A stretch of 34,104 nucleotides of DNA from Bacteroidota bacterium. GTDB lineage: Bacteria > Bacteroidota > Bacteroidia > Chitinophagales > UBA2359. Under the pieces are notes generated by a model. The model did no database searches. It had not been told where the DNA came from and saw nothing but the letters and a program-made list of their open reading frames with translations. The DNA lies in contig JAHDBT010000016.1 in the NCBI GenBank assembly GCA_020630215.1, positions 1 to 34,104 of the forward strand. Reading direction: 5' to 3'. This document shows positions 11,269 through 34,104 of this stretch, piece by piece. Within the stretch, counting starts at the first letter, position 1. Each line of letters opens with the position of its first letter. A program made the translations under genes and the position numbers.

Positions 11269-11612
11269 TTTTAAAACAGGACTATTTAAAGACTTTTGTA
11301 ATGTGTTGTTGTATAAAATTAGCTATTTTTGTTAAATGCCCTAATAATCATTTTAAGGGCTTTTGAGGGCTTTTTTTATGTTCACGGGTTCACCATTGAA
11401 AAAACAAAAGTTTTTCGTTTTTAATAATTTAAATTTAATAAGTGCGCTATTTTCAAGTCTTTATGTACATATTTTAGAAGTCTTTAAATTTTACTTTTTG
11501 CCTTTTTAATAAGCCCTTAAATGTCTTTTTTGGGTTTTTTGTTTCAATTATGCATTTTTTTTCTTTGAAATTATAATTCTAACCTAGATGGTAATAAGTT
11601 AAAAATCCCGTT
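11269..11612. other. Noncoding AT-rich gap with a partial GTTCA element
   Basis: No gene is supported here. It contains several GGGCTTTT/GCCC short inverted pieces (11335-11377) and, at 11379-11394, TGTTCACGGGTTCACC. That matches the TGTTCA-N3-GTTCACC end of the 102-bp elements at 14548 and 27014. GCCCTAATAAT at 11338 is also shared with the sequence just after the 27014 element. Confidence 0.55.
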
Positions 11613-12110
11613 TTATCCTGTTTTGTCTTTTGCTTTTTTTTCTTTCATATTAGACTTGAAAGATATTAAATCTATTGAGTTTTTAACACCGTATTTTTTT
11701 AATGCGTTTGCAAATTTTGATAATATCTTATAATTAACATTATGACCATTCCTAACACGTTGCACCTGATCGGTGCGTATGCCATACTCCTTAAAATAAG
11801 AATTCTCTAATTTATATTTTTCAAGGAAATCGTTAATAATTAAGAGAGCTACATCATTACCCCTAGATACTGAAAATTCAATATCAGTTAATAGGATTTT
11901 TGGATCGGCTATTTTTAGGAACTCGGCTATTTTCGCAATTACGTTTAAACTAGGGGTTTTCCTTCCGTCCATCCAATTACGAACGGTGCGCCTAGAAACG
12001 CCTAAAACGGCTTCTAAGTCCGTCCAGGTCTTATTGTTCATTTCTAATTGTTCGCTTACATTTGTTGTAAACGAATTTTGCACCGTGCATTTTTCTATTC
12101 TTGTACGCAT
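11613..12110 (-). CDS. Two-domain HTH transcription regulator, 165 residues
   Basis: Residues ~17-70 form an Xre/Cro-type helix-turn-helix (WTDLEAVLGVSRRTVRNWMDG, then TPSLNVIAKIAEFL). Residues ~95-150 look like a second, diverged HTH (YFKEYGIRTDQVQRVRNGHN, then YKILSKFANALKKYG), and the tail is lysine-rich. It is the last gene of the leftward 12671-11613 set. The inverted repeat at 12409-12439 upstream of 12383 may be its operator. Probably controls early genes; the target is unknown. Confidence 0.75.
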   Translation of the reverse strand: MRTRIEKCTVQNSFTTNVSEQLEMNNKTWTDLEAVLGVSRRTVRNWMDGRKTPSLNVIAKIAEFLKIADPKILLTDIEFSVSRGNDVALLIINDFLEKYKLENSYFKEYGIRTDQVQRVRNGHNVNYKILSKFANALKKYGVKNSIDLISFKSNMKEKKAKDKTG

Positions 12111-14547: not shown

Positions 14548-14649
14548 GGTGAACACCTGAACACTAGCCGAAAAAAGCACCTAAACTATTGATTTACAGC
14601 TAATTAAGTGTTCATTTTTAAAAATGAACACTTTGAACACTTTGAACAC
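14548..14649 (-). repeat. 102-bp GTTCA iteron-like element, copy A
   Basis: Read on the minus strand it has three GTGTTCA units with exact 9-base period (14625-14649 on the plus strand), one inverted copy (14608-14614), the conserved CAATAGTTTA, and then TGTTCAGGTGTTCACC (14548-14563). Copy B at 27014-27115 has the same order and the same total length. Iterons of this kind typically bind a replication initiator or a regulator. Confidence 0.75.
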
Positions 14650-17155: not shown

Positions 17156-17374
17156 TTATTGTTCTAATTTGTTAATTCTATTTTTCAATGTGTCATTTTG
17201 TTGCTTTCTATCTTCAAATAAATCTAAAAAAGCAGTTGTTACATTTTCATTTTTAGAATCACCTTTTAAAACTTTATGTATGTACCTAGTAGAAAAGTTC
17301 AACTTAGTAGCTACTAAACCAATATCGCCTCTACGTTTTTTTTCTTTAATGTATGCCAATAAGTCAATTTCCAT
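17156..17374 (-). CDS. Small cro-like DNA-binding protein, 72 residues
   Basis: A compact basic N-terminal domain (IKEKKRRGDIGLVATKLNFS, then TRYIHKVLKGDSKNENV) has the length and pattern of a short HTH. A C-terminal helix (residues ~50-72) looks like a coiled-coil segment. It is divergent from the cI-like gene at 17506, with phased repeats between them, the arrangement of a lysogeny switch. The assignment as cro rests on context and size. Confidence 0.65.
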   Translation of the reverse strand: MEIDLLAYIKEKKRRGDIGLVATKLNFSTRYIHKVLKGDSKNENVTTAFLDLFEDRKQQNDTLKNRINKLEQ

Positions 17375-17403
17375 TTTTAACTTTAGCTTTTATTTTTGTA
17401 TTT

Positions 17404-17486
17404 TGTTCGCTGTTTGTTCCTTTTCTGTTCGCAAATATCGGACGGAATGGCGGAAAAAGCAAATATTTTGGAAATAAAATTTCCGC
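17404..17486. promoter_or_regulatory. Operator region of the divergent regulator pair
   Basis: TGTTC motifs start at 17404, 17415 and 17426, exactly one helical turn (11 bases) apart. GCGGAAA (17450-17456) and TTTCCGC (17480-17486) form an inverted repeat. For the cro-like gene, -33 TTTG (17460-17463) and -7 GATATTTG (17432-17439, one mismatch to TAnnTTTG) are 20 bases apart, so these repeats overlap the promoter and its start. Confidence 0.6.
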
Positions 17487-17505
17487 ACATTAATACATTT
17501 TTTTA

Positions 17506-17931
17506 ATGATAGATTATACTGCGAAGAATATCAAGTACTTAATGACTAAAGGAGCTATTCATTACGAATCGCATTTTGGAGTAAAAAAAACCACTATAAT
17601 TAGTTACCGTGAAGGAAAAACTGATCCACCAGTAAATGTTATTCTTAATATTTGCAAACATTTTGCTATTACACCAGATCATTTAATCTTATTAGATATT
17701 GAAAAAGAGGGCGGACTAGATGCTATTAAAGAAAAATATTTAAAGGGAAATGTTAAAATATTAATAGGGGATAAAAAAACAGACTCATGCAACTGTGCAT
17801 CATCAGAAGCATTAATAATGTGCAAAAAATTAAATACATTTCTTGAAAAAGAAAACAGCCGCTTAGAGGCAAGAATAAAGGAACTGGAAAGTATTACTAC
17901 AGTTCCAAAAACTAATAAACAAATTAAATAA
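17506..17931 (+). CDS. cI-like HTH repressor with C-terminal coiled coil
   Basis: 141 residues. Residues ~5-62 form an Xre-type HTH (HYESHFGVKKTTIISYREGK, then PPVNVILNICKHFAITPDHL). The C-terminal ~45 residues are a probable coiled coil (KKLNTFLEKENSRLEARIKE), suggesting dimerisation. There is no LexA/S24-type peptidase domain, so induction would not be by RecA-stimulated self-cleavage. It is divergent from the cro-like gene. The two genes that follow may be expressed with it in the lysogen. Confidence 0.75.
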   Translation: MIDYTAKNIKYLMTKGAIHYESHFGVKKTTIISYREGKTDPPVNVILNICKHFAITPDHLILLDIEKEGGLDAIKEKYLKGNVKILIGDKKTDSCNCASSEALIMCKKLNTFLEKENSRLEARIKELESITTVPKTNKQIK

Positions 17932-25094: not shown

Positions 25095-26486
25095 TTACTT
25101 TTTAGGAATTAGATTAAACAAGGTTTCATACTTTTTTGTATAGCCGCTTATAGTGCCTGTAGCTATGTTTATTTTGCGTGAAATTTCACGGTACGAACAA
25201 CCTTCCATACGTAACTCAAAAACCCTCAAAACCTTATCAGGCAATTGTTCGTAACGTAAAATTGAATGTACTTTTTCACTAGTCATTATATAATACTTGA
25301 TTAGCATTATAGCATTATCAAGAGCATCCACCGTAACAAATTTTGGTTCATCAACCCCATCCGTAGTAGCATAGTCATTGCTTGCCCAATTAAGCAATTC
25401 TAAAACTAGGGCAATACGTGCTAATATACCCCTAAACTTACTATACATACTATCCAAACTTTCATCATTTGCATTTACAATTTTAGTGTGCAAATACTCA
25501 TTACAAAAATTTTCAAAAATGGTTTCTGCTTCTACTGTAAAACTTATTTGTTTTGCATCCTCTGTGTTACTGTATTTTATGTCGTGCAACTTTCTTAAAA
25601 TCTTTTTATACACCGTAATAAACTCAATAGATGGTTTATTTTTTAAAGATATTTTAGGGGTTTTATTATCTTCGGGAAAAGCAAAAAGGAAACGATATAA
25701 AAAACCGTTATCATCTCTATTTCCTGAAGCAAGTTTTTTTAATACTGCGTTTTGAATCCCACCTATTGCAGAAATACAAAGATTAGAAACAAAAAAACTT
25801 TTCTCATCATCATTTCTTTGTACGCTCCCATTTGTGTTATTAAATGCAGACAACCAAAACTGTTCCTCACCACCCTTTGAATACTGATTAAATGAACCTA
25901 CCCAACCCATCAATTCATCTTTTATCAAAACCAAACCTTTAGGATAAGAAAGCATACGCCTTCTCACGGCTTCAACAGTAGCAGAATCTAAATAAACGCT
26001 CTCACGGAACGGTTTAGGGGGGTCTGGCTCTCCCTTTTTCTTCATAGCCATTTCGCCCCTCCAGTACTCTAAATTCTCGTCATACTCCTCCTGCTTCTCT
26101 TTTTCTATATCGTACACAACAGAAGTTCCAAACTTCATAGCAGGCGTTTTTAGTTTTGAGGAAGGGCCAACAATTATTCCCCAAAGAATAGCAGGTTCGA
26201 TCCATAAATTTGTGAGATTTATTTTATAAGAGTTGCCTATAAGTCCAGCCGCAACTATTAAACAAGTTGTAGCAACATAAGGCACAGGTAAATTATTTTC
26301 AGAAGCAGTTTTAAAAATTTGCTGAAATGGCAAGGGGAAGGCTTCAAGCGGAAATTTTTGAAAGTTTTTTTGATTAGAAGAAAACTCGCTGTAAACTTTT
26401 TCTAGTATAGCATCACGATCAATTTCTTCCTTATCGGGTGTTTTTTTACCCCCAATATTTAGCGTTTTAAATTTAGTATTAGCCAT
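25095..26486 (-). CDS. DUF3987-like replication helicase protein, 463 residues
   Basis: Resembles DUF3987 proteins of Bacteroidota phages and plasmids, a RecA-fold helicase-like group. The Walker A position reads GPSSKLKT (107-114), lacking the usual Gly before Lys. A Walker-B-like LVLIKDE is followed by RDDNGFLYRFLFAFPED, a probable arginine-containing motif. The C-terminal ~45 residues form an HTH (VFELRMEGCSYREISRKINI). No separate primase or polymerase was found, so replication likely relies on host enzymes recruited by this protein. It is 7 bases upstream of the PAPS-reductase-like gene. Confidence 0.75.
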   Translation of the reverse strand: MANTKFKTLNIGGKKTPDKEEIDRDAILEKVYSEFSSNQKNFQKFPLEAFPLPFQQIFKTASENNLPVPYVATTCLIVAAGLIGNSYKINLTNLWIEPAILWGIIVGPSSKLKTPAMKFGTSVVYDIEKEKQEEYDENLEYWRGEMAMKKKGEPDPPKPFRESVYLDSATVEAVRRRMLSYPKGLVLIKDELMGWVGSFNQYSKGGEEQFWLSAFNNTNGSVQRNDDEKSFFVSNLCISAIGGIQNAVLKKLASGNRDDNGFLYRFLFAFPEDNKTPKISLKNKPSIEFITVYKKILRKLHDIKYSNTEDAKQISFTVEAETIFENFCNEYLHTKIVNANDESLDSMYSKFRGILARIALVLELLNWASNDYATTDGVDEPKFVTVDALDNAIMLIKYYIMTSEKVHSILRYEQLPDKVLRVFELRMEGCSYREISRKINIATGTISGYTKKYETLFNLIPKK

Positions 26487-26501: not shown

Positions 26502-26984
26502 TTAGTTTTTTTTCGTTTTAGTAATCTTGGTATCTCCTACAATAACGGTCACCGTTGATTCATTGTAAATCTGCCCAATAGTTTTAAATTCTGCACTTTC
26601 ATCATATTTAATTTTATTACCACAATAATCAGAAAATTCGTCATCAGTCAAATTAATAAACCTATTAACCGCTTTTCGTTCTTCTAGGTCTTTAGGATAA
26701 TACATGGTTGTAGGGAATTGAATATTTACCTTCTCAACAATTTCCAATGGTAAAGCTCCTTTTTTAGCCTTATCCCTTTCAATTGTATCTTTAAGAAAAG
26801 ATATAGTGTTTTCACACAGTTTTTGATAATTCAACAATAAGGTTATTCTATCATCTAGCAATTTTGCATACTGTGTTTTTTCAGGGTTTCTATTAATGTA
26901 ACTTTCCGCTTGCTTCGTCATTTTTGCAAGCTCTAAAGCAACATCTTTGTTTAAAAGCTCAAATCTTGCAATTTCAAAGTACAT
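26502..26984 (-). CDS. Hypothetical 160-residue replication-operon protein
   Basis: First gene of the 26984-24032 operon, with a helical N-terminal half (FELLNKDVALELAKMTKQAE, then LDDRITLLLNYQKLCENTIS) and a short beta-like end (STVTVIVGDTKITKTKK). No membrane segment. It lies just left of iteron-like element B, so it may be an initiator or accessory of replication or be regulated by that element. No family was recognised. Confidence 0.65.
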   Translation of the reverse strand: MYFEIARFELLNKDVALELAKMTKQAESYINRNPEKTQYAKLLDDRITLLLNYQKLCENTISFLKDTIERDKAKKGALPLEIVEKVNIQFPTTMYYPKDLEERKAVNRFINLTDDEFSDYCGNKIKYDESAEFKTIGQIYNESTVTVIVGDTKITKTKKN

Positions 26985-27013: not shown

Positions 27014-27115
27014 GTGTTCATTGTGTTCATTTGCGTTCATATCAATAATGAACACCTAACTTATTGATTAACAATAGTTTAAAAGCAAATAAAGCAAGTT
27101 GTTCAGTTGTTCACC
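27014..27115 (+). repeat. 102-bp GTTCA iteron-like element, copy B
   Basis: GTGTTCA at 27014, GTGTTCA at 27023 and GCGTTCA at 27033 are followed by inverted TGAACAC (27049-27055), the shared CAATAGTTTA (27072-27081), and TGTTCAGTTGTTCACC (27100-27115). Order and length equal copy A on the opposite strand. It starts 30 bases upstream of the 26984 gene start, next to the DUF3987 operon, and is a candidate origin or operator. Confidence 0.75.
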
Positions 27116-27759: not shown

Positions 27760-28095
27760 ATGAAACAAGGTGAGATACTAAAGCGAGAATTATCTAAAAA
27801 ATTTTTTAAAGCGGAATATTATGTTCTAGCTTTCGAGGAAAAAGGCGTAAGTAAATCGGCTCTATATTCAAATTTTCAGCGAGAAAAATTAACAAACAAA
27901 GTATGCGCTGTAGCAACACAAATACTAGAAGTAGAATACAATTACTTTGAAGTAGAACAAGACCAAATAAGCAACCAAAACACCGTAAAAATGCTACAAA
28001 GAATTAAGCAGCTAGAAAAAGAAAACGAAGAATTAAAAAGACAGGTAATACAGCTAACAGATACAAACCATACGCTATCTAAAAAAATAACTTAA
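27760..28095 (+). CDS. Small HTH/coiled-coil regulator, 111 residues
   Basis: The N-terminal part (residues ~8-60: YYVLAFEEKGVSKSALYSNF, then QREKLTNKVCAVATQILE) looks like a small HTH. The C-terminal ~45 residues are a coiled coil (MLQRIKQLEKENEELKRQVI). The layout matches the cI-like protein at 17506. It is divergent from 27316 and lies just before attP and the integrase, so it may control integration or excision. Confidence 0.65.
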   Translation: MKQGEILKRELSKKFFKAEYYVLAFEEKGVSKSALYSNFQREKLTNKVCAVATQILEVEYNYFEVEQDQISNQNTVKMLQRIKQLEKENEELKRQVIQLTDTNHTLSKKIT

Positions 28096-28342: not shown

Positions 28343-29560
28343 ATGAGAAAGGAAAAATTTAAACATGCTTACCTAAATAGGGGTAAGCGTTGGGAGGTTG
28401 TATTTACCTACAACTACAAAAGGAAAAGGAAAGCCGGATACAACAACATTTCCGACCTAAACCAACGTGAAGAAAAATACCAATCATTAATCAAAAACAT
28501 CAATCAATTAATTGATCAAAAGATAGACCCGTCATCCGTAAATATATACGATGATGCAACAGTAAAAAAAATAATAGAACGGATAAAAAAAACAAAATTA
28601 CAAAAGCAAATACATCATAACACAAAAGTAAATTGCTCAAAGAACCAAACCATTACACAAGCCTATCAAACAGCACTTGCTTTAGCGATACACGGAAAAG
28701 AGAAAGTAACACGACACAATTATACCAATCACCTTAACAGCTTCCTAAATTGGCTTGTAGCCGAAAATAAAGAACTCCTACCAATAAAAAAACTATCAAA
28801 AAAAATAGCTCGTACCTACCTAGATTATTTAATCTTGATTAAAAAGAAAGATAACGGAGAAAATTTAGCAAATGTCACAATTAAAAATAATCACGCAGTA
28901 ATGGGGATTTTAACAGGCATATTGGTGGAGCGTGAGATAATAAAAGAGAATTATTTTTTAAAATGCAAAAAGGTAACGGTAAACGCCAAACCAAAAATAA
29001 CCATTCCCAAACACATACAAAAAAAAGCTTTCCAATATGCCGAGCAACATTTTAAGCCGTTTACGATTTGCATGGCTCTCACACTTTCAGGAAGGCGCAT
29101 AGTTGAGCAAACAAGGATACAGGTAAAACACATTCATCTGAAAGAACAAAAAATTATACTGCCCTTAAATGAAGTGTGTAAAAAAAACCGTGACTATCAC
29201 GTTTTTTTAATCCCCTCCTTTATCATTCCTTATTTAGCCGAATATCTAAATCACACGAACAAAGAATGGTTTCTGTTTTCAAAAAACAATGGTAAACTAC
29301 TTGCGGGGCCTTCTCCAATTAGAATTAGAAGTTTAGAAAGGTATTGGACGAAAACAAAAAAAGGAATAGGTATCGAAAATGAAACCTATTCCTTGTATCA
29401 GCTAAAAAATAGCGGACTAGAAAAAATGTATGATAGTGGTGTTAATCCCTTAGATATGCAAAAACAGATGGGACATAAAAAATTTGCTTCCACGGAGGCT
29501 TATTTACGTTTGTTTGATAAAGGGCCAAAAGATGGCAAAATTAAAGGGATTGAATTTTAA
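28343..29560 (+). CDS. int: Tyrosine recombinase, phage integrase type
   Basis: 405 residues: an N-terminal arm-binding-like region, a SAM-like core-binding domain (~105-200) and a catalytic domain (~215-405). Catalytic positions: Arg252 in SGRRIVEQ, a Lys near residue 280 (VCKKN), Lys355 in YQLKNSG where many relatives have HxxR, His378 in MGHKKF and Tyr387 in EAYLRL. The Lys replacement is seen in other Bacteroidota integrases. It follows the attP candidate, so it should integrate the circle into a tRNA gene. It is convergent with the broken gene at 29561, with no gap. Confidence 0.9.
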   Translation: MRKEKFKHAYLNRGKRWEVVFTYNYKRKRKAGYNNISDLNQREEKYQSLIKNINQLIDQKIDPSSVNIYDDATVKKIIERIKKTKLQKQIHHNTKVNCSKNQTITQAYQTALALAIHGKEKVTRHNYTNHLNSFLNWLVAENKELLPIKKLSKKIARTYLDYLILIKKKDNGENLANVTIKNNHAVMGILTGILVEREIIKENYFLKCKKVTVNAKPKITIPKHIQKKAFQYAEQHFKPFTICMALTLSGRRIVEQTRIQVKHIHLKEQKIILPLNEVCKKNRDYHVFLIPSFIIPYLAEYLNHTNKEWFLFSKNNGKLLAGPSPIRIRSLERYWTKTKKGIGIENETYSLYQLKNSGLEKMYDSGVNPLDMQKQMGHKKFASTEAYLRLFDKGPKDGKIKGIEF

Positions 29561-33539: not shown

Positions 33540-34104
33540 ATGGACATTTCACCTTCTAATTTAGCGGTTAATAATTTGCCAGAACCTTGCACGGGTTGCG
33601 GTAAAAAAAAGACTTTAGAAAGTAAAGAGGTTAAAGAACAACCGAAAGGCGTACAATGCACTAATGAGGGTTTGTTGCATCAATATGAAATATACGATGT
33701 AACAGGACAAACATTAATTGAAACTATTGGCCCTTTCTCTCCTGCTACTGCAAAGTTAGCATTAGCACAATTTCTAAACCCTAATCCTTTGCCTCAACCA
33801 TCCATTACTTATGAGGTTAAATTATTGGAATATTGCGGTAATACTACTGTTTCTGTTAGCGATGATTTTGTAATTAATCCATGCTTTGATTGTAAAAACG
33901 GTATTGAATGCGGTGGTAAGTGCATAGAAAACTGTAGTACTGTACAGCTAAATCCTTTAACGTGCGAATGTTGCGAGGAAGGAGAAGTGTTTTGCCAATT
34001 AACAGGGGAATGTGTTCCATTGCCCGAAAATTGTCCTTTAGTACAATACAATCCTTTAACGTGCGAATGTTGCGAGGAAGGAGAAGTGTTTTGCCAATTA
34101 ACAG
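33540..34104 (+). CDS. Giant cysteine-rich spike-like protein, 5' part (continues at base 1)
   Basis: This is the N-terminal part of a protein that runs off the end of the window and continues in frame at base 1; joined over the 118-bp overlap it is 1262 residues. The ATG at 33540 follows an A-rich leader. The first ~135 residues form a unique domain starting MDISPSNLAVNN, with a CTGCGKKK cysteine cluster, and then the cysteine-rich 33-residue repeats begin. No signal peptide or membrane segment is visible. It follows two small membrane-protein genes downstream of the candidate capsid gene, which suggests a virion surface protein. No family was recognised for the N-terminal domain. Confidence 0.8.
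   Translation, partial: MDISPSNLAVNNLPEPCTGCGKKKTLESKEVKEQPKGVQCTNEGLLHQYEIYDVTGQTLIETIGPFSPATAKLALAQFLNPNPLPQPSITYEVKLLEYCGNTTVSVSDDFVINPCFDCKNGIECGGKCIENCSTVQLNPLTCECCEEGEVFCQLTGECVPLPENCPLVQYNPLTCECCEEGEVFCQLT
33987..34104 (+). repeat. Terminal overlap identical to bases 1-118
   Basis: These 118 bases equal bases 1-118 exactly, including the single unit variant that encodes Leu-Val-Gln rather than Leu-Ala-Gln. The overlap keeps one open frame across the junction. This is the pattern of a circular contig cut at an assembly overlap, but because it lies in a 99-bp tandem repeat an unresolved repeat break is also possible. Confidence 0.85.

Follow-up and report, generated by a model that had tools for sequence, protein, structure and literature searches.

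A duplicated GTTCA iteron array as a putative replication origin region read by a DUF3987 helicase in a virus-like element of Bacteroidota

DUF3987 proteins, which are labelled as being of 'unknown function', are found widely on plasmids, phages and islands. In a 34,104 bp contig of a Bacteroidota bacterium (JAHDBT010000016.1; the whole of this stretch is hereafter called the window), an iteron-like element occurs twice, once in a noncoding gap and once beside a DUF3987 operon, which raises the question of which protein reads these repeats and to what end. The original prediction, made from the letters alone, regarded both copies as candidate origins or operators linked to DUF3987. In this study, we describe the two copies (elements A and B), a third site (C), the helicase genes that carry comparable repeats elsewhere and the alternatives that have to be weighed. 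We consider it probable that the C-terminal HTH of the window's own DUF3987 protein binds to the arrays A and B and to the half-site C, and that these act as a replication origin region.

The positions, strands and equal length of 102 bp predicted for the two copies were confirmed (Table 1). Their common unit order is borne out by the GTTCA cores, which lie at offsets 18, 27, 36, 51 (inverted), 103 and 111 in A and 15, 24, 34, 48 (inverted), 100 and 108 in B; in both copies three direct iterons are followed by one inverted iteron, a 52 bp step and two direct iterons, and nearly all of the spacings are equal. Four and two iterons flank a 44 bp spacer, and the predicted shared spacer sequence is present in both copies. 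The units are of the GTGTTCA type originally described, except that the third unit of B reads GCGTTCA and the right-hand pair of B is without the leading G. Exact TGTTCACC is confined to the right ends of A and B, site C has GTTCACC and the other units read GTGTTCA. When the window was shuffled 300 times with dinucleotides preserved, the maximum was four GTTCA words per approximately 100 bp, compared with six in each of A and B. Within the 7.4 Mb genome bin of 767 contigs, a tandem GTGTTCA pair is found in A and B only, and one further site with a single mismatch is at chance level. A and B are thus a real, non-random element; a search of Rfam gave no match. The copies are identical at 64 of 102 positions, comprising 31 of the 37 iteron columns and 33 of the 65 non-iteron columns, CAATAGTTTA included. 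Because the latter also match above expectation (18.6 ± 3.5), A and B appear to be related along their whole length and most likely descend from one element. The count of two copies stands for the full-length element, to which a site missed by the original prediction has to be added: site C is identical to the right-hand pair TGTTCANNNGTTCACC, a pattern with three matches in the window against 0.03 expected.

Table 1. Positions of the repeat elements and of the associated genes in the window.
Feature	Position	Strand	Description
Element A	14548-14649	-	Six GTTCA-core iterons (3 direct, 1 inverted, 2 direct); spacer 68% AT
Element B	27014-27115	+	Layout as in element A; spacer 77% AT
Site C	11379-11394	+	Right-hand iteron pair TGTTCACGGGTTCACC on its own, in the gap separating two converging gene blocks
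CAATAGTTTA in spacer of element A	14582-14591	-	Common to A and B
CAATAGTTTA in spacer of element B	27072-27081	+	Common to A and B
DUF3987 protein, 463 aa	25095-26486	-	Proposed initiator helicase; PF13148, 183 bits; PHROG 2373, DNA helicase
C-terminal HTH of DUF3987, residues ~414-452	25131-25247	-	Proposed iteron reader
160-aa protein	26502-26984	-	Family unassigned; between B and DUF3987

The window is a complete contig and a virus-like DNA element. It encodes an integrase, an endolysin, several HTH regulators and the DUF3987 protein, and contains a weak match to an A32-type packaging ATPase, of which no close relatives were found. The contig may be circular since its ends overlap by 118 bp, although the overlap lies within a 99 bp tandem repeat. 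This repeat (1-384 and 33800-34104) spans the contig ends and encodes a Cys-rich repeat protein (MFCQLTGECVPLPENCP...). A related element, G003:C86 (L113, L114), shares the integrase, endolysin and packaging ATPase with the window; it encodes an 858-aa protein resembling a DnaG-type primase and has no GTTCA array, the replication module being swapped between the two. In the assembly G003:C86 apparently stands twice in tandem, the sequence repeating after ~28.4 kb; over the 1.6 kb that were compared, 94% match. The predicted surroundings of the two copies were found to be correct: A sits in a noncoding gap of 639 bp, and B, 12.5 kb away, precedes the first gene of the DUF3987 operon by 30 bp. 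The 160-aa protein, which probably shares the operon, had been put forward as a second candidate for binding the element, but nothing implicates it. Directly behind DUF3987 lies the gene for a PAPS-reductase-type protein (PF01507; 24032-25087), the two ORFs being 8 bp apart. GC skew, originally proposed as a means of locating the origin, does not change sign at B but does so near A, at 14 kb, where the cumulative skew is at its maximum, and close to 32 kb; it tracks gene direction and is not decisive as an origin locator.

The DUF3987 protein scores far above the PF13148 cut-off of 27 bits, and the domain model and HTH matches predict a helicase with a C-terminal DNA-binding domain, the recognition helix of which reads ATGTISGYTKK. 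A sequence search of solved structures returned nothing significant, and AlphaFold run on the single sequence gave a mean pLDDT of 35. No close relatives of the protein were found in IMG/VR or in 19 other genomes of the same family.

Public viral and genome contigs were searched with a pattern representing the left half of the element; the right half, used in the same way on viral contigs, gave no match. Among the matches in mobile elements, a GTGTTCA cluster lies repeatedly a few bases past the stop codon of an AAA_25 (RepA/DnaB-like) helicase that ends in a short C-terminal HTH. In the alignment of the AAA_25 helicases whose neighbourhood first yielded this pattern (A2), all seven have the same kind of C-terminal HTH and six of the seven have the cluster at most ~10 bp from the stop. 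Several mobile elements (L058, L149 and L163) hold two or three GTTCA clusters, and in L075, the HTH of which carries the signature described below, the cluster, as in the window, does not follow immediately after the helicase gene. GTTCA-type palindromic clusters are also seen between housekeeping genes and not near helicases in chromosomes of Mucilaginibacter and another Bacteroidetes bin (L050, L055, L057, L071 and L078); L050, L055 and L057 were excluded on account of this position. Vibrio genomes (L053, L074 and L086) share an inverted cluster of GTTCA that precedes a conserved gene, the product of which contains MDEY.NNDRSHQSIIESSWRRC.

The idea that GTGTTCA itself follows DUF3987 genes was rejected, as the DUF3987 loci scanned first had no GTTCA clusters and had other iterons instead. 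Downstream of DUF3987 genes fetched regardless of repeats, the iterons include TGTCCGG, GGCA, GGCGAAA, TTTTGTCG and more. For a quantitative comparison, helicase sets were gathered by protein similarity only, not by repeats, and the 120 bp after each stop codon were searched for a repeated 7-mer with one mismatch allowed (p ≤ 0.05 against dinucleotide shuffles), a 6-mer count having missed visible degenerate arrays. Significant iterons follow 27 of 76 DUF3987 genes and 15 of 24 AAA_25 genes. Before the start codon the counts are 4/75 and 4/24, and in a control window 300 bp downstream they are 4/75 and 1/23, respectively. For DUF3987 the downstream enrichment has a Fisher p of 4e-6 against either control; for AAA_25 p is 0.003 against the upstream region and 3e-5 against the region further downstream. 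The median distance from stop codon to iterons is 10 bp for DUF3987 and 3 bp for AAA_25. The predicted link between an iteron element and DUF3987 is supported, iteron clusters accompanying DUF3987 genes in general. The suggested recurrence of this very element upstream of DUF3987 in relatives found no support: the searches yielded no close relative with a conserved A or B, and elsewhere the iterons lie just downstream and are mostly of other sequences. Judged by these surveys, the combination of a helicase and adjacent repeats turns up widely in Bacteroidota mobile DNA, each helicase apparently with its own repeat word. By the 7-mer test about two thirds of DUF3987 genes have no significant downstream iterons, and none were detected in the 120 bp downstream of the window gene (p 0.60).

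The HTH and the iteron word vary together. L041 and L141 encode AAA_25 helicases whose bodies are 80% identical, whereas both HTH and iteron differ: L041 combines ...ISLGAVNKYLK with GTTCA iterons and L141 combines ...ISHMKVSRILK with GTTACA iterons. As read from such pairs, HTH and iteron sequence change together in AAA_25 helicases. Profile comparison shows that the DUF3987 and AAA_25 families can be aligned over the C-terminal HTH only. An HTH HMM was built from the last 48 residues of helicases associated with GTTCA, with the window left out of training. Of all DUF3987 proteins, the one in the window has the top score with this model (21.2 bits, followed by 15.3), and among the window ORFs DUF3987 alone scores well (18.2 bits; next 4.8). 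The C-terminal HTH of DUF3987 is thus the one domain in the window that matches the readers of GTGTTCA iterons elsewhere, in keeping with the DUF3987 link first proposed. This HTH is of a generic type, and the model alone is no proof of specificity since some AAA_25 helicases with other iterons (L150 and L141) score above the window protein. L163, a remote helicase outside the HMM training set, has a matching HTH together with TGTTCAC iterons. The recognition-helix signature [GA][AT][VI][NS]xY is present in four unselected helicases, all four with GTTCA iterons, and 92 of the 94 helicases lacking it are without such iterons; this result is descriptive, the signature having been chosen after seeing the same data. 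Among window proteins the signature occurs in DUF3987 only. The covariation supports the view that the C-terminal domain may bind the iterons and drive replication. We give an even chance to the broader proposal that DUF3987 and AAA_25 helicases carry exchangeable HTHs dictating the adjacent iteron sequence, in a recognition-helix code readable from sequence alone, in which [GA][AT][VI][NS]xY stands for TGTTCA, with the window as a split origin comprising two full sites and a third half-site.

The leading alternative, although an unlikely one, is that a phage repressor or another regulator uses A and B as operators to control the DUF3987 operon and silence replication; candidates are, for example, the HTH proteins encoded at 17156-17374, 17506-17931, 11613-12110 and 27760-28095. 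The closeness of B to the first ORF of the operon would suit such a role, as would the gap between divergent HTH regulator genes at 17375-17505, where three direct repeats of a related core, TGTTC(G/C), stand 11 bp apart (17404, 17415 and 17426). These are likely to be repressor operators themselves, yet they read TGTTCG or TGTTCC and the gap is without the GTGTTCA unit. In addition, no gene start is closer to A than ~490 bp, the HTH regulators of the window fail the GTTCA-linked HTH model (best 4.6 bits), and the same iterons elsewhere follow helicase genes, not promoters. Still less probable is that the tyrosine integrase encoded at 28343-29560 uses A or B as its attP, with the iterons as arm-type sites and CAATAGTTTA in the core. 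B is 1.2 kb from int, arm sites on both sides of a core are the layout of attP, and in L058 one of the three GTTCA clusters directly follows a gene that is integrase-like by position and sequence. However, the integrase of G003:C86 is 36-38% identical to that of the window, yet its element has no GTTCA cluster and a different replication protein; attP would not need two complete, diverged copies, and GTTCA clusters elsewhere follow helicases. A role of A, B and C in partition, packaging or another maintenance step instead of replication would fit several copies round a circle, also typical of centromere-like or packaging sites, and the position of C where gene blocks converge, but is very improbable given that no ParA or ParB gene was found among the window genes tested and that the HTH match points to the helicase.

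Under the favoured reading, a split origin region recognized by DUF3987, subunits of the helicase would dock on the iterons through their HTH, and the two iteron groups would position helicase assemblies at both flanks of the AT-rich spacer, which may then melt and allow loading of the helicase domain at this point. B, which lies immediately upstream of the operon, would be the likelier main origin and could also mediate autoregulation of the operon, while A and C may serve as further cis sites comparable to phage P4 ori plus crr. Against this reading stand the placement of the full arrays, which lie upstream and 12.5 kb away and not directly downstream of the helicase gene, and the distance of two of the three sites from the DUF3987 gene. 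If the rule holds, DUF3987 origins could be located from sequence through the iterons beside the gene and the HTH would allow prediction of incompatibility groups; with its many natural pairs, the short recognition helix would amount to a directly testable protein-DNA code, useful for building replicons in Bacteroidota.

Several known systems resemble the one proposed here. SaPI Rep and SCC Cch2 are helicases with a C-terminal domain that recognizes iterons downstream of the gene (PMC7581432), and in PICI origins of Gram-negative bacteria two iteron sets flank an AT-rich region (PMC6092414). The present system shares with SaPI Rep, SCCmec Cch2 and PICIs a helicase with a C-terminal DNA-binding domain, here a predicted one, and short iterons in two sets round an AT-rich stretch, and with SaPIs the position of the iterons directly downstream of the helicase gene in its relatives. 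It differs in the helicase, which is DUF3987 here and DUF3987 or AAA_25/RepA-like in the relatives, and in the window arrays, which comprise two full copies and one half copy and are placed upstream of the operon and at a distance from it. The phage P4 record (NC_001609) annotates type 1 repeats in ori and further repeats in crr. P4 ori likewise has six iterons, three followed by an inverted one, a spacer and two more, over 104 bp; the core TGTTCACC also ends A and B, and the proposed window origin, like that of P4, would involve more than one separated cis region, so that P4 provides a precedent for several cis sites. The P4 type I iteron reads GGTGAACA, whereas most window iterons read GTGTTCA in the same direction, and crr has five annotated repeats per 120 bp unit in a different order. 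Because no homologue of P4 alpha, an alpha-type primase-helicase, was found among the window ORFs, the likeness in DNA would reflect convergence or be very old. Kazlauskas et al. predict that DUF3987 is a helicase of mobile elements and that origins are recognized by C-terminal winged-helix domains (PMC5862659). The sections of that paper considered here mention neither iteron sites next to the gene nor a correspondence between HTH and iterons; the paper treats primase fusions, which are absent in the window. In a limited literature collection, no paper was found that combines DUF3987 with iterons. The way of working is thus already known from SaPI Rep, SCC Cch2 and P4 alpha; what is new lies in the helicase families involved, in a layout split over several sites and in the link between HTH and iteron.
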